From Rhodocyclaceae bacterium (GTDB lineage: Bacteria; Pseudomonadota; Gammaproteobacteria; Burkholderiales; Rhodocyclaceae): 52,152 nucleotides of DNA. The DNA lies in NCBI GenBank assembly GCA_020445785.1, contig JAGRFZ010000142.1:1-52152 (forward strand), given 5' to 3'. The notes under the pieces are model-generated. The model had not been told where the DNA came from and did not search any database. It saw nothing but the letters and a program-made list of their open reading frames with translations. Shown piece after piece: positions 26,677-37,807 of this stretch. Numbering within the stretch: the stretch's first letter is position 1; each line of letters begins with the position of its first letter. The translations under genes and the position numbers were made by a program.

Positions 26677-29600
26677 ATGCCTCCGAACGGTGAAGCCGCA
26701 TTCGATGGGCGCGATTCCAGCGCCGGCCCTCCGACGGGCGCGAGGAGACGCTTCTGGCGCGTGTTCCTGCCGGTCGCCGTGCTCGTCGCCGTGGGTACGC
26801 TGGCGGCGGGCCTGCTGGCCGAGCGCAGTCTCGTCGCCGAACTCGAACGACCGGCGACCCGTATCGCCGCGCAACTGAAGACCCATCTCGATGGCGTGCT
26901 GTCGAGCTACGTCGACCAATTGGTCAGCGTCGGCCGGCGCGAGCCCAGGCTGTCACGGCAATTCAACGCGGCGGAGCCCGATCTCGGCGTCGTGGCCAAC
27001 GAGTTCTTCACGCTGCTGGTGCGCAACGAAGAGCATTTCCAGGTGCGCTGGATCGACGAGAACGGTCGCGAAGTCGTCCGCCTCGACCAGGATGGGGCGG
27101 GCAACATCCGGCGCGTGCCGGACGCGGAACTGCAGGACAAGTCCTCGCGCCCCTACGTCGCTGCCGGTCTCACTTTGGGGCCCGCCGAGATCTACGTTTC
27201 GGCCCTCGACCTGAATGTCGAAAACGGCGTTCTCTCCGTGCCGCACGTGCCGACCATCCGGCTGGTGACACGGGTCTTCGGCGCGTCGGGGGCTGCCCGC
27301 GGCATCGTTGTGCTGAATGTCGGTGCCGCGCGGTTTCTCGATCGTTTCCGAGCAATCTCCCGCTCCACCGAGAGCTTTCTGCTGAACGCCGACGGCTACT
27401 GGCTGAGCAGTGTGCACGCCGAGGACGAGTGGGGTTTCATGCTGGGAAGGCAGGACAGCTTCGGCCGGCGCCACCCGGGGGTCTGGGCTGCCATGCAGCG
27501 AAGCGAGGCGGGTCGTGTGGTGAGCGAATCCGGTTTCTGGACTTGGCAGACGCCGGAGGTGCTGCCGAATTCGGCGCGGGGCGACGCCTCGCTGCAGTGG
27601 AAGATCGTCGCCCACGTCGCGTCGTCCCGAATCACGGCGCAACGCGTACTGGTGTGGGCCGCGGTGCTCGGCGGCATGGCGCTGCTCTTGATGTTTGCGG
27701 CCTCGTCATTGTGGCGTTTGTCCTTGGCCAACCAGGGCAGGCTGCTTGCCCAGCAGGCCTACCGGCGCGAGGCCGAACTGCTGGCCGAAGCGAACCAGTC
27801 GCTGCAGCGGTCGATCGAAGAGCAGGAGCACGCCGAAAAGGGACTGCGGGCGGCCGTCGACAAGCTTTCGGCGGCCCGCGCCGAAACCGAAGCGGCGCGG
27901 CAAGAGGCGGAGCGGGCCAATCGCGCCAAGTCGGCCTTCCTGGCCAACACCAGCCACGAGATCCGGACGCCGCTCAATGCGGTCATCGGCTCGGCGTATC
28001 TGCTGGGCCTGACCAAGCTCGATGGCGACCAACGACAGCATGTGGAAACCATCGACATCGCGAGCCGCTCGCTTCTCGATCTGATCAACGACGTCCTCGA
28101 CCTGTCCAAGATCGAAGCGGGGGAGATGCAGCTCGATCCGGTGCCGTTCGCGCCTGCGGCACTGCTCGGAGAGCTGCGCACCATGTTCGACGTCGGCGCG
28201 CGGCACAAGGGTCTGGCGCTGCACTTCCGGCCCCTGCCGGATGCGATGCCGGGCGTGCTGGTCGGCGATGTCCGGCGCCTTCGGCAGATCCTCGCCAACC
28301 TGATCAACAACGCCATCAAGTTCACCGACCACGGCAGCGTCACGGTGGATGCCTCGGTGGTCGAGCCCGCCGGCGATGCCAACGCGGTTCGCGTGCGCTT
28401 CCGGGTGATCGATACCGGCATCGGCGTCCCGCTGGCAGTGCAGGATCGCGTGTTTTCACCGTTCGTGCAGGCGGACGTATCGACCTCGCGGCGGTTCGGC
28501 GGCACCGGCCTGGGCTTGTCGATCGTCAGGCATTTGTCGGAGATGCTCGGCGGGCGGGCGGGCGTCGAAAGCGAGGCGGGCGAGGGCAGTACCTTCTGGG
28601 TCGAGGTCGTGTTCGCGCGTGCGGACGATGCCATGGCCGAGGCCGGGCCCGGCTCGGCGGCTGGCCCGCTTCGGGTGGTGGTGGCAGACGACGACGCCGC
28701 CGACCGCCAGGTCATCGCCCACATCGCCAGGCGTTTCGACTGGTCCGTCGACGTCGTCGATGGCGGGCAGACCCTCGTCGAGCACGTGCTCGAAGCCTAC
28801 GAATCGGCGCAGCGGCTGGACTGCGTGCTGGTTGACTGGCGCATGCCCGAGGTCGACGGACTGGACGCCATGAAGCAAATCCGCACCCGGCTGTGGGATG
28901 CCCCGATGCCGGGCATCGTGATGGTGACGGCCGCCGACGAGGCCGAGTTTCGCGGACAGGACGGCGCCCTGCTGGCCGATCAACTCGTCACCAAGCCGAT
29001 CGATCCGTCCAGCCTGTTCAATGCGGTCAATGATGCGGCATTCAGTCATGGTCTTGCGCTCGACCACGTCATTCGCCGCACCCGGATCGAAGGGGTCGAT
29101 TGCCAATGGCTGTACGGGGTCCGTGTGCTGGTCGTCGATGACAGTCCGATGAACCTCGACGTCTGCCAGCGCATTCTCGAACATCAGGGTGCGGTGGTGA
29201 CGATGTGCCGTTCCGGAGAGGATGCCCTGGGCCGGCTGGCGGTGGTCGGCGAGCGCTACGATGCGGTGCTGATGGACGTGCAGATGCCGGGCATGGACGG
29301 CTGTGAAACGACCTGCGAATTGCGCAAGGCGGAAGGGTGGGGATCGGTCCCGATCGTCGCCCTGACCGCGAGCGCGATCGCGAGCGAACGCGAGCGGGCG
29401 ATGGCGGCGGGCATGGACGGTTTCCTGACCAAGCCGATCGATCCCGGTGCGCTCGTGCTCGCGCTGCGGACCCACGTCGAAAGCGTGCGCGGAAAGCCCC
29501 TGCCGGTGGTGCCTCGGCCGTCGGATCTGCCGCGCGAACAAGCCTCGTTTCCGGAGATCGAGGGCATCGATCGAAATTTCGCGATGCGACGGCTCGAGGG

Positions 29601-30186
29601 GGACCAGGTGTTGTTCTTCAGCCTGCTGCGCAACTTCTCGAAGGAGCATGCGCACACCGCCGAGCGTCTGGCAGGTCTGATCGCGGAAAAGGACATCGAC
29701 GCGGCCGCCGCTTTCCTCCACCGACTTCGTGGCCAGGCCGGGTATCTCGCCGCCGGCACGCTGTTCGAGCGGGCGCAAGCGCTGGAGACGGCGTTGGTCG
29801 AGGGAAAGGGCGACCTGGCGCCGGCACACACCCAGTTCGAGGAGTCGCTGCGGGCCTTCTTGCGGGCGATCGAACCGTGGACGCGGGCTTCTTCGGGGCG
29901 CGAGACCCTGGACGAGGCAGCCGTTCCGATCGGCGAGGTGCTTCCCCTGGTCGGCGAGTTGCGCGGGCTGCTCAAGAGTTTTGCGCTCTCGGCCGAAGCC
30001 TGTGCCCGCCGAATCGCCGTGATGCTGGGAGATTCGGCCTGGCGGGAGCGCTTCGATCCGATCATCGACCTGATCGAGTGGCTACGCTACGACGAGGCGC
30101 TGCGCGCGCTGGCGGTGTTCGAAGGCGAGCTGAAGGGCGGCAAGCAGGCCGGCGCGGATTCCCTGCCGGCGGCGGAGCATCCGTAG
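26677..30186 (+). CDS. Hybrid sensor histidine kinase with two receiver domains and Hpt
   Basis: An 1169-residue multistep phosphorelay sensor. Domains in order: N-terminal membrane helix (about 29-48), a periplasmic Cache-like sensor (about 50-320), second membrane helix (about 325-347), coiled coil, HisKA with phospho-acceptor H427 in NTSHEIRTPLNAV, HATPase (NLINNAIKF; FGGTGLGLSIV), receiver 1 (Asp near 720 in DWRMPEVDG), receiver 2 (Asp near 867 in MDVQMPGMDG), and a C-terminal Hpt with H1015 in FLHRLRGQAGYLAA. All acceptors are intact. The signal and the output regulator are unknown. It starts 223 bp after dddY; a link to DMSP or acrylate is only positional. Confidence 0.92.
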   Translation: MPPNGEAAFDGRDSSAGPPTGARRRFWRVFLPVAVLVAVGTLAAGLLAERSLVAELERPATRIAAQLKTHLDGVLSSYVDQLVSVGRREPRLSRQFNAAEPDLGVVANEFFTLLVRNEEHFQVRWIDENGREVVRLDQDGAGNIRRVPDAELQDKSSRPYVAAGLTLGPAEIYVSALDLNVENGVLSVPHVPTIRLVTRVFGASGAARGIVVLNVGAARFLDRFRAISRSTESFLLNADGYWLSSVHAEDEWGFMLGRQDSFGRRHPGVWAAMQRSEAGRVVSESGFWTWQTPEVLPNSARGDASLQWKIVAHVASSRITAQRVLVWAAVLGGMALLLMFAASSLWRLSLANQGRLLAQQAYRREAELLAEANQSLQRSIEEQEHAEKGLRAAVDKLSAARAETEAARQEAERANRAKSAFLANTSHEIRTPLNAVIGSAYLLGLTKLDGDQRQHVETIDIASRSLLDLINDVLDLSKIEAGEMQLDPVPFAPAALLGELRTMFDVGARHKGLALHFRPLPDAMPGVLVGDVRRLRQILANLINNAIKFTDHGSVTVDASVVEPAGDANAVRVRFRVIDTGIGVPLAVQDRVFSPFVQADVSTSRRFGGTGLGLSIVRHLSEMLGGRAGVESEAGEGSTFWVEVVFARADDAMAEAGPGSAAGPLRVVVADDDAADRQVIAHIARRFDWSVDVVDGGQTLVEHVLEAYESAQRLDCVLVDWRMPEVDGLDAMKQIRTRLWDAPMPGIVMVTAADEAEFRGQDGALLADQLVTKPIDPSSLFNAVNDAAFSHGLALDHVIRRTRIEGVDCQWLYGVRVLVVDDSPMNLDVCQRILEHQGAVVTMCRSGEDALGRLAVVGERYDAVLMDVQMPGMDGCETTCELRKAEGWGSVPIVALTASAIASERERAMAAGMDGFLTKPIDPGALVLALRTHVESVRGKPLPVVPRPSDLPREQASFPEIEGIDRNFAMRRLEGDQVLFFSLLRNFSKEHAHTAERLAGLIAEKDIDAAAAFLHRLRGQAGYLAAGTLFERAQALETALVEGKGDLAPAHTQFEESLRAFLRAIEPWTRASSGRETLDEAAVPIGEVLPLVGELRGLLKSFALSAEACARRIAVMLGDSAWRERFDPIIDLIEWLRYDEALRALAVFEGELKGGKQAGADSLPAAEHP

Positions 30187-33615: not shown

Positions 33616-34086
33616 ATGGCGCAATTCAAAGTCAAAAACCTGATGGTCGACATCGCCTCGGCCAAACTGGACGAGATCGCAGGCGCGATCTGCCATTTCC
33701 CGACGAACGCGTGTGCCCACTTCACGCTGCACTGTCGGCTCAACACCTATCAATGTCCCGGCCACAGCGTGCTCTGCCGGAATCCGACCCTGACTGCCTG
33801 CTTTCGGGGCTCGTGCTTCCTCTCGGACGGCTGCGGCGTCAACTATTCGACCTGCATGGACACCCGCCTGTGGGTGATCGACTTCGAGCGGCTGGTCATC
33901 AATCCGGACGACATCAAGGCGGTGCAGGGGCAACTCGGCGAAGCCCTAAAGGCGCTGCATGTCCGCAGCGAGGAGATTTCGCAGGACATGAAGCCCAAGA
34001 CCATAGAGCAGGCGGAAATGCTCGAGGCCGGCTTGAAAGCCGCACTGGACGAAGTGCAGGCGGCCAGGAAGGAGCTGGACAAGTGA
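33616..34086 (+). CDS. Putative lanthipeptide-type RiPP precursor with nine regularly spaced Cys
   Basis: A 156-residue protein. Cys fall at 26, 33, 40, 47, 54, 62, 67, 73 and 80, the first five exactly seven apart. Ser/Thr precede many of them by three residues: TNAC, TLHC, TYQC, SVLC, SDGC. This is the spacing expected for thioether (lanthionine-type) rings. Residues 1-25 (MAQFKVKNLMVDIASAKLD...) may be a short leader. Residues 85-156 contain no Cys and are highly helical and charged, a long C-terminal tail that is unusual for a RiPP. The gene has a strong ribosome binding site and is followed by a HopA1-like protein and a kinase-cyclase gene. No family name recognised; a metal-binding or structural Cys-repeat protein is the alternative. 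Confidence 0.7.
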   Translation: MAQFKVKNLMVDIASAKLDEIAGAICHFPTNACAHFTLHCRLNTYQCPGHSVLCRNPTLTACFRGSCFLSDGCGVNYSTCMDTRLWVIDFERLVINPDDIKAVQGQLGEALKALHVRSEEISQDMKPKTIEQAEMLEAGLKAALDEVQAARKELDK

Positions 34087-34087
34087 G

Positions 34088-34127
34088 CCGAGCGCGCGTG
34101 CCGGGCCGCCCGGGCGGCCCCGCTCGG
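34088..34127 (+). other. Strong stem-loop between precursor and modification genes
   Basis: CCGAGCG (34088-34094) pairs with CGCTCGG (34121-34127), enclosing the perfect 18-bp palindrome GGGCCGCCCGGGCGGCCC (34103-34120). It lies in the 67-base gap after the precursor. In RiPP operons such a hairpin commonly limits read-through so that precursor message exceeds enzyme message; here that role is inferred. Confidence 0.5.
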
Positions 34128-34153
34128 GCGATGGCGGCGGCGGAGCCGGGCCG

Positions 34154-35362
34154 GTGATCGATCCGTCTGGGCTGAAATCGATCACCGGCGGGATCTTCCG
34201 CGCCAATCCGGTGTACGAGATCGTGCTGCTCGACCGCTTGCCGGAAGTATACCGCGACGCGTTCGAGGCGGAGGCCGAGCAGGATCCGGAGTTGCACGGG
34301 GTGCTCTGGCCGACGTCCGGCCAGGGGCTCTCGCCAAAGACGATCTGTCATGAGACCGCCTTGCTGCTGCATTCCCTACGGCAGCCGGGGCCCCTTCCGG
34401 CCTACGTGCGGACCCGCCTCGGCCCCGACTGCAACCGGACCGTGGCCGAACTGGTGCTGGACGGCGTGCTCGAGTTGGCGATGGGCCCGGACGCCGGCTT
34501 CGTTTCGGGTCCCGCCGCCCACGCCCTGATCCATCGGGACGAGGCCTTTGCGCTCGGGCAGGGAAGAATCGCCGCCTTGTCCCGGGATGCGCTCCGCTAC
34601 GGGCAGGGGCTGCGTGTCGAGGGCAGCGGTGAACTCTCGTCCCGCCTCTATGCATACAACACGGTGCCGATCACGGCGGCCTGGCGGGAGAAGCTGTCCA
34701 CCCTGGAAACGATCGAGGACTTCCTCGGTATTCGGGGCGATTCGGCCACGCGCCGATTGCTGGAACGCCATTGGGTACGGCTGGGCGAGGGCGAAGGCAA
34801 CGACGGTTGGCTCATGTGGCGGCCGCGACATGCGCGACCCCGTGGCGCCCGGGCGGATGAGATTCGGCGCTTCAAACTGTACGTGAGTCCCCGCCCCGAA
34901 GCATTGCCGCAGGCCTGGCCAGACGTGGTCGACGTTTTCGCTCGCAGCGGCGTGGCGGCGTTCAAGATCGGGCGGGATGTCTCCGGGCTCCTGCGCCCGG
35001 ACAAGATCGTGGCCTATCTGGATTCGTTCGAGGAACTGGCCGACCTCGCGGTGCGACTCCAGGAGCGCCTGGTCGGCTGCCCGGCGCAGGGAACGCCCTT
35101 TACTGCCGGCATCGACGACGCCGGCCTGCTTTCCTGGGGCATGGATCCGCCCAGCGAGGAACGAATGCCCGGCTCCGGTCTGCCGGAAAGTTGGCGGCTA
35201 TGGGTGACGAATCGACTGGCGGTCGCGCTCGCGGCCGCCAAGGTGACCTGCGCCGGGATCGAACCGTGGCAGTTCGCCTTGCGACGGCTGAGCATCGAGG
35301 GTGTCGACATCGATACCTGGGCGCCCGACAGACAGCGTTGGCACGAGAAAAGGAGAGGCTAA
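34154..35362 (+). CDS. HopA1-like putative phospho-Ser/Thr lyase (LanY-type)
   Basis: A 402-residue protein without signal or membrane helix. The second half resembles the HopA1 effector-like lyases of class V lanthipeptide clusters: RRFKLYVSPRPEALPQAW (K241), VAAFKIGRDVSGLLRPDK (K271, K284), a YLDSFEELADLAVRLQERL helix and PFTAGIDDAGLLSWGMDPP (about 315-333). In those pathways the lyase eliminates phosphate from phospho-Ser/Thr to give dehydro residues. The start is a GTG at 34154. The GTG of the kinase-cyclase gene follows directly after the stop, so the two act together. The assignment is by resemblance and neighbourhood and needs a profile search; no close family is certain. Confidence 0.55.
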   Translation: MIDPSGLKSITGGIFRANPVYEIVLLDRLPEVYRDAFEAEAEQDPELHGVLWPTSGQGLSPKTICHETALLLHSLRQPGPLPAYVRTRLGPDCNRTVAELVLDGVLELAMGPDAGFVSGPAAHALIHRDEAFALGQGRIAALSRDALRYGQGLRVEGSGELSSRLYAYNTVPITAAWREKLSTLETIEDFLGIRGDSATRRLLERHWVRLGEGEGNDGWLMWRPRHARPRGARADEIRRFKLYVSPRPEALPQAWPDVVDVFARSGVAAFKIGRDVSGLLRPDKIVAYLDSFEELADLAVRLQERLVGCPAQGTPFTAGIDDAGLLSWGMDPPSEERMPGSGLPESWRLWVTNRLAVALAAAKVTCAGIEPWQFALRRLSIEGVDIDTWAPDRQRWHEKRRG

Positions 35363-37807
35363 GTGGCAAGCATATCGGACCCCCTGGTCGTACCCGAGGA
35401 CGTGGAATTGACGCCGGTCGGCACTTTGAGCGAGGCGCTGCGTGGGCGCCTGGCCTGCGATGAGGGCGACGTGGCGATCAGCCGCCAGCGCTCGCGCACC
35501 CCGTCGAAAGTGATCAGTGCGGCAGCCGCCGGCCTGCTCGCGCAGTTTCGCTCGCCGACGACCCTCGGCGAAGGCGTGCTCCGCTACAGTATCGCGATCG
35601 ACAGCGATCCGTACCAGACCCTGGAAGAAGCCTTTCCGCTGATTCGGGATCTGGTCAATTCCCAGCTCCTGGTGCCCGGTGACGCACCCCAGGCCGAGGA
35701 GATCGTGACCAGCCTGGGCGCGGGGGCGGAGGTCGACGGCCTTACCGTCGTGCGTTGCGTGCAAACCCTCGAGGACACCGAGCTCTACCAGGTTCGCGGC
35801 GCCGAGCGGGCGCCCTTCGCCCTCAAACTCGCCCGCGCCAAGGCCGGTGCCTCGGTGGTGGCGATGATCGAGCACGAGTGGTGCGTGCTGCGGCATCTCG
35901 CGCAGGCGAACCCCGCCCTGGTGGTCGCGCGCGGCGAATGGGAGGGGCGCGCCTATTTGGCGCAGCCCTGGATCCACGGCGCTGCCGCCGATGTGGTCGC
36001 CGAGGAATGTCGCCGGGCCCCTGCCGCAGAGCGGCCATCGAAACTGCTGTCCTTGTGCGCGTCGATACTCGACGCCTACGCCGAACTGCATCGGCGGGGC
36101 GTGGTGCACGGCGACATTCACCCGCGGAACATTCTGGTGGACGCGAACGGGCGGGTCCGGCTCATCGATTTCGGCCTCGCGCGTATTGTCGGCGCCACCG
36201 ATGGCGGCGGGCCACCGCAGCGGGGCGGCGTCGGTTTCTTTTTCGAGCCCGAGTATGCGTTGGCGCGCCTCGCACGGCAGGCCCTCCCCGCAGCTTCGTT
36301 CGCGGGCGAGCAGTTCGCGCTCGCTGCCCTCGTCTACTTGTTGCTCACCGGTGACCACTATCGCGATTTCCCGCTGGGGCAGGACGAAATGCTGCGCGAG
36401 ATCGCCGGCGAGGCGCCGTTGCCGTTCTCGCAGCGCGGGGCCGCAACATGGCCCGCCGTCGAGTCCGTACTGGCCCGTGCCCTGAGCAAGGAGCCGCGTC
36501 GACGATTTGCCGATGTGGATGCCTTCGCGCAGGCACTGCGGGCCGCAGCCGAGCCGACGGGCGCCTCGGGGCGCGGCGGGGTTGCACCCATGGCGGGCGC
36601 GCAGCCGGCCGATCGGCACGGCCCGGGCCTGCTGTCACGCGTGCTGCAGCGTCTCGGATGGGACGGAGCGCCGATGCAGGAAGGCTGGACCCCTCCGCCC
36701 ACCGCGTCGATCAACTACGGTGCCGGCGGCGCCGCCCACGTGCTGTATCGGATGGCCGCGGTGCGCGGCGATCCGGGCCTGCTGGCGCTGGCGGACGTCT
36801 GGGCGACGCGGGCCGCGGCGATGATCGGCGAGGAAGGCGCTTTCTACAATCCGGCGATCGAGATCACCGCCGAGACGGTGGGCCGTGTGTCGCCCTACCA
36901 TTCGCCCAGCGGGATCTTCGCCGTGCAGGCGCTGATCGCATTGGCGCGAGGGGATGACGCCGCCCTGCAACAGGCGCTGGCGGACTTCGTCGCCGCCGCC
37001 GACGCCCCGTGCGACAACCTCGACCTGACCCTCGGCCGGAGTGGTGTGTTGCTGGCGAACGCCTTGCTCGTCGAAGCACTGCCTTCGACGCACCTGGCGG
37101 GGCAGGCGGGGCTGCTGTCGCTCGGCGAAGCCACGGCGAATTGCATCGCCGAGGCGATCGGCGGCGCCGCACCGATCGCACGCGACGATGGGATCTCCAC
37201 CTTGGGCATCGCCCACGGTTGGGCGGGGCTGATCTACGCGGTGTTGCGCTGGTGCGAAGCGAGTGGGCAGGCGCGTCCCGCCGGACTGGCGACGCGGCTC
37301 GCGCAACTGGCCGACTACGCCGAGCCGATCGGTCGCGGCGCGCGCTGGCCGTGGCAACTGGGCGTGGCCGACGCGACCTACATGCCCGGCTGGTGCAATG
37401 GCAGCGCCGGGCTGGTCTTTCTGTGGGCCCAGGCCCATCGTTCGCTGGGTGACCCCCGCTACGCGGCATTGGCCGAGATGGCTGCCTGGAATGCCTGGGA
37501 AGAACCCGGCCGCGCGGCGAACCTGTGTTGCGGCTGGGCAGGGCGTGGCTACGCCTTGCTGCACTGGTACAAGCATAGCGGCGATCCGACCTGGTTGATG
37601 CGAGCCCGCATCGCTGCCGAGCGGGCGGCCGAAGCGATCGGTGCAGCCCTCTCCGACACCTCGGATGGCTATGAGAACAGCCTCTACAAAGGGGAACTGG
37701 GCGTTGCCGCGCTGGTGTTCGACCTGGATGCGCCAGAACGCTCGGCGATGCCGCTGTTCGAGTCGGAATCGGTTACACGCAGAACCGGCCAGCCAACCCG
37801 GCGGTGA
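35363..37807 (+). CDS. Fused Ser/Thr kinase and LanC-like cyclase (lanthipeptide synthetase-like)
   Basis: An 814-residue enzyme that would phosphorylate Ser/Thr of a precursor and then close thioether rings. Residues 1-115 look like a PqqD-type winged-helix peptide-recognition domain (LLAQFRSPTTLGEGV, FPLIRDLVNSQLLVP). The kinase (about 120-395) has the ATP Lys K155 in FALKLARAK, the catalytic HGDIHPRN at 249-256 and DFG at 269-271. The LanC-like alpha/alpha barrel (about 445-800) has HGWAGLIY, zinc Cys C678 in WCNG, and C722-C723 in CCGW. The CCG pair replaces the usual Cys-His, as in ProcM-type relaxed cyclases. The start is GTG 35363 with AAGGAGA. An N-terminal lyase domain, present in class III LanKC, is missing and seems supplied by the preceding gene. 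Confidence 0.82.
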   Translation: MASISDPLVVPEDVELTPVGTLSEALRGRLACDEGDVAISRQRSRTPSKVISAAAAGLLAQFRSPTTLGEGVLRYSIAIDSDPYQTLEEAFPLIRDLVNSQLLVPGDAPQAEEIVTSLGAGAEVDGLTVVRCVQTLEDTELYQVRGAERAPFALKLARAKAGASVVAMIEHEWCVLRHLAQANPALVVARGEWEGRAYLAQPWIHGAAADVVAEECRRAPAAERPSKLLSLCASILDAYAELHRRGVVHGDIHPRNILVDANGRVRLIDFGLARIVGATDGGGPPQRGGVGFFFEPEYALARLARQALPAASFAGEQFALAALVYLLLTGDHYRDFPLGQDEMLREIAGEAPLPFSQRGAATWPAVESVLARALSKEPRRRFADVDAFAQALRAAAEPTGASGRGGVAPMAGAQPADRHGPGLLSRVLQRLGWDGAPMQEGWTPPPTASINYGAGGAAHVLYRMAAVRGDPGLLALADVWATRAAAMIGEEGAFYNPAIEITAETVGRVSPYHSPSGIFAVQALIALARGDDAALQQALADFVAAADAPCDNLDLTLGRSGVLLANALLVEALPSTHLAGQAGLLSLGEATANCIAEAIGGAAPIARDDGISTLGIAHGWAGLIYAVLRWCEASGQARPAGLATRLAQLADYAEPIGRGARWPWQLGVADATYMPGWCNGSAGLVFLWAQAHRSLGDPRYAALAEMAAWNAWEEPGRAANLCCGWAGRGYALLHWYKHSGDPTWLMRARIAAERAAEAIGAALSDTSDGYENSLYKGELGVAALVFDLDAPERSAMPLFESESVTRRTGQPTRR

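Follow-up and report, generated by a model that had tools for sequence, protein, structure and literature searches.

We analyzed a 52,152-nucleotide stretch of DNA from a Rhodocyclaceae bacterium (contig JAGRFZ010000142.1 of assembly GCA_020445785.1; hereafter, the window), in which a candidate lanthipeptide operon occupies positions 33616-37807. An earlier, sequence-only reading of the same DNA had described three consecutive genes here, and we confirmed them as open reading frames (ORFs) of the + strand, encoding a precursor peptide, a lyase, and a kinase fused to a LanC-like cyclase (Table 1). A gap of 67 bases separates the precursor gene from the lyase gene, and the stop codon of the latter abuts the GTG start of the fusion. 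The window genome (89% complete) contains a single match to the LanC family and a single match to the precursor profile. A consensus scan found no sigma-70-like promoter; the only terminator-like site lies within the fusion gene, and such sites were fewer than in shuffled sequences.

Table 1. Coordinates of the operon features in the window (aa, amino acids; RRE, recognition element of ribosomally synthesized and post-translationally modified peptides, RiPPs; L-numbers designate loci with homologues).
Feature	Position	Strand	Basis
Precursor peptide gene (156 aa)	33616..34086	+	Homologues aligned; substitution ratio against L002 (see text)
Leader motif, residues 1-13, MAQFKVKNLMVDI	33616..33654	+	F-x-V-K-D-L-hydrophobic conserved in alignment; also in L044, L046, L050, L056, L057
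Putative core, C26-C80, 9 Cys	33691..33855	+	Ser/Thr at -3 of C33, C40, C47, C54, C73
Conserved C-terminal tail, ~residues 96-156	33901..34083	+	Precursor alignment; helix-like as judged from sequence
Putative stand-alone HopA1/OspF-fold phospho-Ser/Thr lyase (402 aa, GTG start)	34154..35362	+	AlphaFold, Foldseek, conserved residues
Lyase N-terminal domain, aa 15-85, probable homologue of that of the fusion	34196..34408	+	hhalign
Kinase-LanC fusion (814 aa, GTG start)	35363..37807	+	Pfam, NCBIfam, AlphaFold
PqqD/RRE-like domain of the fusion, ~aa 8-108	35384..35686	+	Weak PqqD/ThcOx matches in relatives; modelled order b-a-b-b-a-a-a
Ser/Thr kinase domain, ~aa 125-395	35735..36547	+	Pfam; K155, E172, H249-x-D251, N256, D269
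LanC cyclase domain, ~aa 446-798	36698..37756	+	Pfam; H618, zinc triad C678, C722, C723

The kinase-cyclase fusion and the predicted stand-alone lyase

The claim that a kinase is fused to a LanC-like cyclase was borne out, as both PF00069 (kinase; 46.4 bits, cut-off 31.7) and PF05147 (LanC; 80.3 bits, cut-off 23.2) scored above cut-off in one chain, the LanC match covering 10-347 of 350 positions. PF01636 (APH) was also above its cut-off over part of the kinase domain (33.8 bits, cut-off 23.2). All the residues listed for the two domains in Table 1 are invariant in a wider alignment of fusions, and we take them to be the catalytic and zinc positions. A zinc site of this kind, Cys-Cys-Cys (“CCG”), is described in the available text of PMC11251773. 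The AlphaFold model of the fusion (predicted local distance difference test, pLDDT, 79.5) retrieved LanCL/GCR2 first in Foldseek, then PknB. Among curated lanthionine synthetases in NCBIfam, the nearest was LanL (NF038150), with 154 bits over residues 159-754 and a cut-off of 650; LanKC (NF038151; 100.8 bits, cut-off 575) and LanM (TIGR03897; 40.8 bits, cut-off 304, with the best stretch in the cyclase part, residues 508-782) also remained below their cut-offs. The sequence-only reading had called the fusion a class III part: its joining of kinase and cyclase holds, and the class label is inexact because the cyclase keeps the Cys-Cys-Cys zinc triad, the closest model being that of class IV LanL.

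The product of the second gene matched no Pfam or NCBIfam family above cut-off, and nothing relevant appeared in Pfam up to an expectation value (E) of 10, nor in NCBIfam. Searching PDB sequences with the lyase alignment (hmmsearch) gave only two matches (E 0.31 and 1.7), which we took as chance. Its AlphaFold model, built from 13 sequences (pLDDT 82.4; predicted template modelling score, pTM, 0.82), found in a Foldseek search of the PDB the structures of HopA1 (4rsx, E 1.3e-6; 4rsw, 1.8e-5) and of the class V lyase LxmY (9dk3_B, 4.0e-6; 9dk1_B, 4.5e-6; 9dk2_B, 1.7e-5), followed by class III/IV synthetases (LanKC/LanL), SpvC, OspF and VirA. Among the 50 matches listed, the first 25 all belonged to this lyase superfamily, and the 26th (E 0.026) was unrelated. 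The gene encodes a predicted stand-alone lyase of HopA1/OspF fold. The HopA1-likeness that had been read from the sequence was recovered in part: in the predicted fold, where comparison with HopA1/OspF-type lyases found HopA1, LxmY, SpvC and OspF, and weakly in the sequence of one relative (L047), while the HopA1 profile PF17914 did not match the window protein. Below cut-off, the catalytic region of two of the 13 lyases scanned gave a sequence bridge, to PF17914 in L047 (E 0.017) and to PF25816 (RamC_N) in L045 (E 0.0016), the latter presumably the lyase domain of a class III synthetase.

Residues K241, K271 and R281 are invariant in both lyase alignments; Y288 shows no exception in the first alignment and is nearly invariant in the wider one. 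According to the available text of PMC9486802, CaoY residues R187, K219, R229 and Y236 correspond to SpvC K104, K136, R148 and Y158. The spacing K271-10-R281-7-Y288 of the window lyase is that of K219-R229-Y236 in CaoY. Two positions differ from one or the other of these enzymes: Lys241 stands where CaoY has Arg187 (a Lys is also found in OspF and LanKC), and an invariant Tyr243 stands where SpvC has its acid His106, two residues after K104.

In the place where LanL and LanKC carry their lyase, the fusion has an N-terminal domain of ~110 residues. Two of its 14 members weakly matched PqqD (PF05402; best E 0.0098) and two weakly matched ThcOx (0.024), the window copy matching neither; an NCBIfam scan of the domain gave no recognition-domain match. 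A PDB sequence search with its alignment gave nothing meaningful, and the search with the lyase N-terminal alignment gave Protein A over ~28 residues (best 8.9e-6), discarded as a short helix match. The N-terminal region of the lyase aligned to the fusion domain in hhalign with a score of 29.9 (probability 49%, E 1.7e-4). None of 200 column-permuted controls exceeded 22.9; the remaining parts of the lyase and of the fusion scored 12.8 and 13.7, respectively, and the reversed control 12.1. By this comparison the two regions are probably, not certainly, homologous. The lyase of Paenibacillus peoriae HS311 also matches the N-terminal-domain profile (E 6e-4). On the plasmid of Cupriavidus oxalaticus X32 (NZ_CP038636.1; L057:12375-13448, - strand), an ORF joins the same domain, with 39% identity to that of the window fusion, to a 2OG-Fe(II) oxygenase (PF13640, 47.9 bits); the fusion of this locus runs convergently on the other strand. 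When 22 genomes or records were searched for the domain, 20 matched; beyond fusions, these matches comprised only the Cupriavidus oxygenase and, marginally, the Paenibacillus lyase (E 0.0099), and no other lyase was found. PqqD-like folds bind leader peptides, serving as RiPP recognition elements. Each enzyme would then carry its own leader-binding module, which for the lyase is probable and not certain.

Distribution of the gene pair and its precursors

A search of GTDB contigs with the fusion gave 14 loci, from Rhodocyclaceae, Acidobacteriota, Eremiobacterota, Bacteroidota (three Dyadobacter and one Saprospiraceae), Roseococcus and Desulfobacterales. Although found with the fusion alone, 13 of the 14 also had a lyase match, including two damaged loci (L014 and L015). 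The set of 20 pair-bearing loci used below comprises the window, L002-L012, L044-L049, L056 and L057. Outside it remain L013, which has neither lyase nor N-terminal domain, L014, where the fusion is broken across two frames, the lyase is truncated N-terminally and no precursor was matched, and L015, which consists of fragments. In 19 of the 20, both genes share a strand and the lyase comes first, the Cupriavidus pair being convergent; in L049, the lyase ORF lacks the N-terminal domain.

Searches with the lyase profile yielded lower bounds, as often only part of the first-pass candidates per genome was scored. The profile matched at least 2 of 199 genomes in the window's family (the window genome and G140, very probably the genome of L002), and at least 6 of 396 in the phylum of the L003 genome (G200, Acidobacteriota), one of them the seed. 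The five new genomes in this phylum had six lyase loci, all six with an adjoining fusion. Elsewhere we obtained at least 1 of 296 in the phylum of G206 (Dyadobacter) and at least 1 of 149 in that of G203, in both cases the seed, and at least 1 of 398 in the window's phylum, the window itself. Among plasmids, the fusion and lyase queries returned the same two records, from P. peoriae HS311 and C. oxalaticus X32; a viral collection scanned with the lyase gave nothing. As seen from the fusion, lyase-profile and plasmid searches, the pair occurs rarely and in scattered taxa, with its two genes almost never apart. The co-occurrence across taxa of lyase and kinase-cyclase was thereby confirmed (13 of 14 fusion loci, all six new lyase loci, both plasmids). 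The system had been placed in a betaproteobacterium, which is right for the window and too narrow in general, since it is found in Pseudomonadota, Acidobacteriota, Bacteroidota, an Eremiobacterota genome and a Paenibacillus plasmid. The fusion tree places Bacteroidota next to an Acidobacteriaceae row (support 80/91) and the window pair next to two copies from one genome, G498 (89/92). Horizontal transfer is suggested, not strongly supported.

The window precursor matched no Pfam or NCBIfam family above cut-off. Its Cys residues lie at positions 26, 33, 40, 47, 54, 62, 67, 73 and 80, so that each of the first four gaps is exactly 7, and five of the nine have Ser/Thr exactly three residues upstream (Table 1). 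The same nine positions are occupied in L002, from a related Rhodocyclaceae metagenome-assembled genome. Between these two loci the precursor has 91.6% amino-acid identity and a ratio of nonsynonymous to synonymous substitution rates (dN/dS) of 0.066, compared to 73-74% and 0.24-0.27 for lyase and fusion. The precursor (33616-34086 vs L002:6258-6725) is thus better kept than its enzymes, unlike what would be expected of a rapidly diversifying antimicrobial.

Profile search (E < 0.01) identified a precursor in 15 of the 20 pair-bearing loci, 11 of the 15 being seeds of the alignment. These peptides start like F-K/R-V-K-D-L-M-I-D-I and continue with a variable Cys/Ser/Thr stretch and a conserved tail, mostly K-P-Q-T...L-E-x-K-L-x-E-A. 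Their cores diverge strongly, with repeats of CYASGG in L044, of CTDCTTQQFSICGTSP in L046 and of CHFGCS in L008, and lengths are 126-263 aa in the 16 precursors compiled. By eye, we identified a further candidate in L057 (MAFRAKRVRIQI..., followed by a similar tail) and short candidates in L045, L048 and L049; none was visible in L047 among ORFs of at least 60 aa. The Cys/Ser/Thr patterning attributed to the precursor is upheld by the Cys spacing, the Ser/Thr phasing at -3 and the leader, core and tail of its homologues.

The precursors of the Saprospiraceae locus L007 are on another contig of the same genome (G204), where three tandem, diverged precursor genes (L050:3162-4546) lie upstream of one lyase start, the contig ending inside the lyase gene. 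On the Paenibacillus plasmid (NZ_CP011513.1; L056:7855-8607, + strand), three tandem leader-core-tail units form one polypeptide of 250 residues, and an element similar to the C-terminal tail of the window precursor sits between its cores. The G498 genome has two separate lyase-fusion pairs (L045 and L046) with very different precursor candidates, ORFs of 99 and 263 aa.

Proposed pathway and competing explanations

The conservation of the precursor against L002, the recurrence of the pair across phyla and the Ser/Thr-Cys phasing indicate a three-gene unit beyond chance. The gene pair is conserved, most loci have a leader-core-tail precursor, and both kinase and zinc cyclase conserve their active-site residues; the gene set of a lanthipeptide pathway, that is, dehydration enzymes and a LanC-type cyclase beside a precursor with a leader and a Cys/Ser/Thr core, is present. 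We consider it likely that the locus encodes a lanthipeptide (RiPP) pathway in which a kinase-cyclase fusion and a separate lyase make serial (methyl)lanthionine rings.

What the enzymes do to the precursor, how the shared domain serves recognition, which rings form and what becomes of the product are inferred as follows. The N-terminal F-x-V-K-D-L strand of the precursor would be bound by a PqqD-like recognition domain, one on each enzyme. Judging from its conserved catalytic residues, the kinase half of the fusion would phosphorylate Ser/Thr in the Cys-rich middle of the precursor, and the separate lyase, by analogy with CaoY and SpvC, would eliminate the phosphate to give dehydroamino acids, with K271 as the base together with Y288, K241 acting on the enolate and R281 on the phosphate. 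The zinc-binding Cys-Cys-Cys LanC half would add Cys thiols, giving a row of small T/S-x-x-C rings in the window product. The C-terminal tail would be a conserved follower, and leader and follower removal and export would be carried out by factors encoded elsewhere.

Several observations weigh against this lanthipeptide pathway or its details. Neither Pfam nor PDB sequences give a significant match between the window lyase and HopA1, the template modelling scores of its structural matches are modest (query-normalised, 0.41 at best), and K241 and K271 are 30 residues apart, compared to 32 in CaoY and SpvC as far as the available text gives them. In the Pfam scan that gave the RamC_N and HopA1 bridges, the unrelated Rng_hyd_C matched 4 of the 13 lyases about as well (best E 0.0024), so that the bridges alone prove little. 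With the whole lyase alignment the hhalign score falls to 25.8 (probability 8%), and the pTM of the fusion model, 0.53, does not fix the packing of its domains. Five of the 20 pair-bearing loci have no profile-matched precursor, and none of the eight ORFs examined around the window operon is a transporter, exporter or peptidase. As for the phasing, in 12 precursors chosen from the 16 compiled (137 Cys), Ser/Thr occurred at -3 of Cys 46 times, where 28.9 occurrences would be expected if the Cys positions are kept in place (p 0.001); this is one of 16 offsets tested, with others enriched (+1, +3, +4 and +5), of which +4 (47 against 26.8 expected) and +5 are at least equally strong, and repeats inside one precursor are not independent. 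Offsets -1, +2 and +7 were depleted. Given the 16 offsets and the partly repetitive sequences, we regard the enrichment at -3 as supporting, and not as proof.

Lanthipeptides are divided into classes by the way in which their dehydrating and cyclising activities are packaged. As in class IV (LanL; VenL is of this class) and class III (LanKC), the kinase here precedes a LanC-type cyclase in one chain, and a Lys occupies the enolate position of the lyase. In contrast, their lyase is N-terminal in that same chain, whereas here it is a gene of its own and a PqqD-like domain takes its place; class III differs further, as LanKC has no zinc ligands. It could be argued that the lyase domain of an otherwise ordinary class IV synthetase simply became a separate gene, since LanL is the best NCBIfam match, the zinc triad is present and the L045 lyase weakly matches RamC_N. 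We find this doubtful: the match is far under the LanL cut-off, the N-terminal place of the LanL lyase is taken in the fusion by a domain of its own, and HopA1 and LxmY ranked above class III/IV synthetases in the fold search.

Class V (LanK/LanY; lexapeptide, cacaoidin) also has a separate HopA1-fold lyase working with a kinase, and the fold and the Lys-10-Arg-7-Tyr spacing, as in CaoY, fit; PF17914 is lacking in the window and reached below cut-off in L047. The class V kinase, however, is free and of APH type (PF01636), whereas here PF01636 passes over part of a PF00069 kinase fused to a zinc LanC (PF05147). HopA1-phosphotransferase pairs are reported from many phyla, 20% of them near or fused to LanC (Eyles et al. 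2021, PMC8153245). These clusters resemble ours in having HopA1-like lyases near LanC-like cyclases; the available text describes HopA1-phosphotransferase pairs or HopA1-LanC fusions, and a kinase-LanC fusion is not mentioned in it. That the locus belongs to this known kind, as a divergent class V or HopA1-LanC cluster (perhaps families 11/20 or 22 of that paper), is unlikely. The nearest folds of the lyase, HopA1 and LxmY, and the APH score of the window kinase would agree with it, but PF17914 does not retrieve the window lyase, PF00069 describes the kinase better, and the fusion named in the available text is HopA1-LanC rather than kinase-LanC. Our search of the open-licence literature, which did not extend to subscription papers and supplements, turned up no account of a free lyase working beside a kinase-LanC fusion. 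To that extent the claim that no such arrangement had been described stands, with the HopA1 genes near or fused to LanC in PMC8153245 as a near miss.

The remaining classes are more distant. ProcM-type class II cyclases share the Cys-Cys-Cys triad, according to the available text of PMC11251773; their dehydratase, of DUF4135 type and fused to LanC in LanM, was not found here. The same text tabulates a combination of lyase and Cys-Cys-Cys cyclase (L-CCC, 8 predicted peptides), comparable to ours in pairing a lyase-type dehydratase with such a cyclase; its lyase model was built from VenL, and the lyase family of the window is not described in the portion available. Class VI (LanKCb, Streptococcus) likewise combines kinase and cyclase in one enzyme, but in the accounts available it is one chain in which both lyase and cyclase are truncated, and its substrate is short, whereas here the lyase is separate and the cyclase is near full PF05147 length. 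Our bearing on class I is limited to the second gene having no family; a class I cluster from another Dyadobacter, as described in the available text of PMC12584681, is different from the present system. For each of classes II, III, IV, V and VI, a defining feature that we tested is thus absent from the system, and we file it as a variant that may deserve a lanthipeptide class of its own.

It is very unlikely that, instead of making lanthipeptides, kinase and lyase form an irreversible phospho-switch on another target, with the Cys residues binding metal or forming disulfides: the window flanks examined have no exporter or peptidase, and the precursors are long and strongly conserved between two related genomes, but the kinase chain has an intact LanC active site with its zinc triad, Ser/Thr-x-x-Cys phasing and a PqqD-like domain are present, and the leader motif is joined to variable cores, in tandem leader-core-tail units in Paenibacillus.

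Returning to the lanthipeptide pathway, we lean slightly towards a distinct, undescribed synthetase class, in which lyase, kinase-cyclase and optional tailoring enzymes (the Cupriavidus 2OG-Fe(II) oxygenase) would each carry their own copy of a PqqD-like recognition domain, and the core would lie between a leader and a conserved C-terminal tail, tripled in the Paenibacillus polypeptide. A free HopA1/OspF-type lyase with a kinase fused to a zinc LanC lies between classes III/IV and V, and could show an exchange of parts; the lyase itself mixes traits, with Lys241 as in OspF and LanKC, yet a fold nearest HopA1 and LxmY. If true, one recognition domain on several enzymes would amount to modular tailoring. 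Genome mining that relies on PF17914 or on the LanL/LanKC cut-offs would overlook the window genes. Relatives occur in the named strains Dyadobacter psychrophilus DSM 22270 and D. alkalitolerans DSM 23607, and the chemistry is therefore directly testable.

Genes around the operon

Seven ORFs around the window operon encode an FMN reductase, a beta-lactamase-fold protein, a CRP-type regulator, a protein without family, and FecR/TPR, CHASE2/cyclase and GGDEF-EAL proteins; the eighth ORF examined, further away, encodes a hybrid histidine kinase. When flanking ORFs from 22 sources, chosen mechanically, were compared all against all, one loose cluster over eight loci emerged besides the three genes, everything else being common to two loci only. 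The nine members of this cluster that were scanned are two-component, PAS, sigma-54 or other regulator ORFs in differing places, and for this reason we treated the cluster as probably generic. Beyond the three genes, none clearly belongs to the unit. Regulator ORFs of this kind were seen near the operon in the window (26677-30186) and in seven other loci.

Among PADLOC defence models, the 25 matches listed of the 33 to the fusion all fall on the kinase region, and neither lyase nor precursor matches any, so that we discarded a defence reading. Further ORFs near the operon (L051:3680-6289, L049:532-3531 and L046:1741-3972) are hit by the fusion profile, a match probably owed to the kinase domain.

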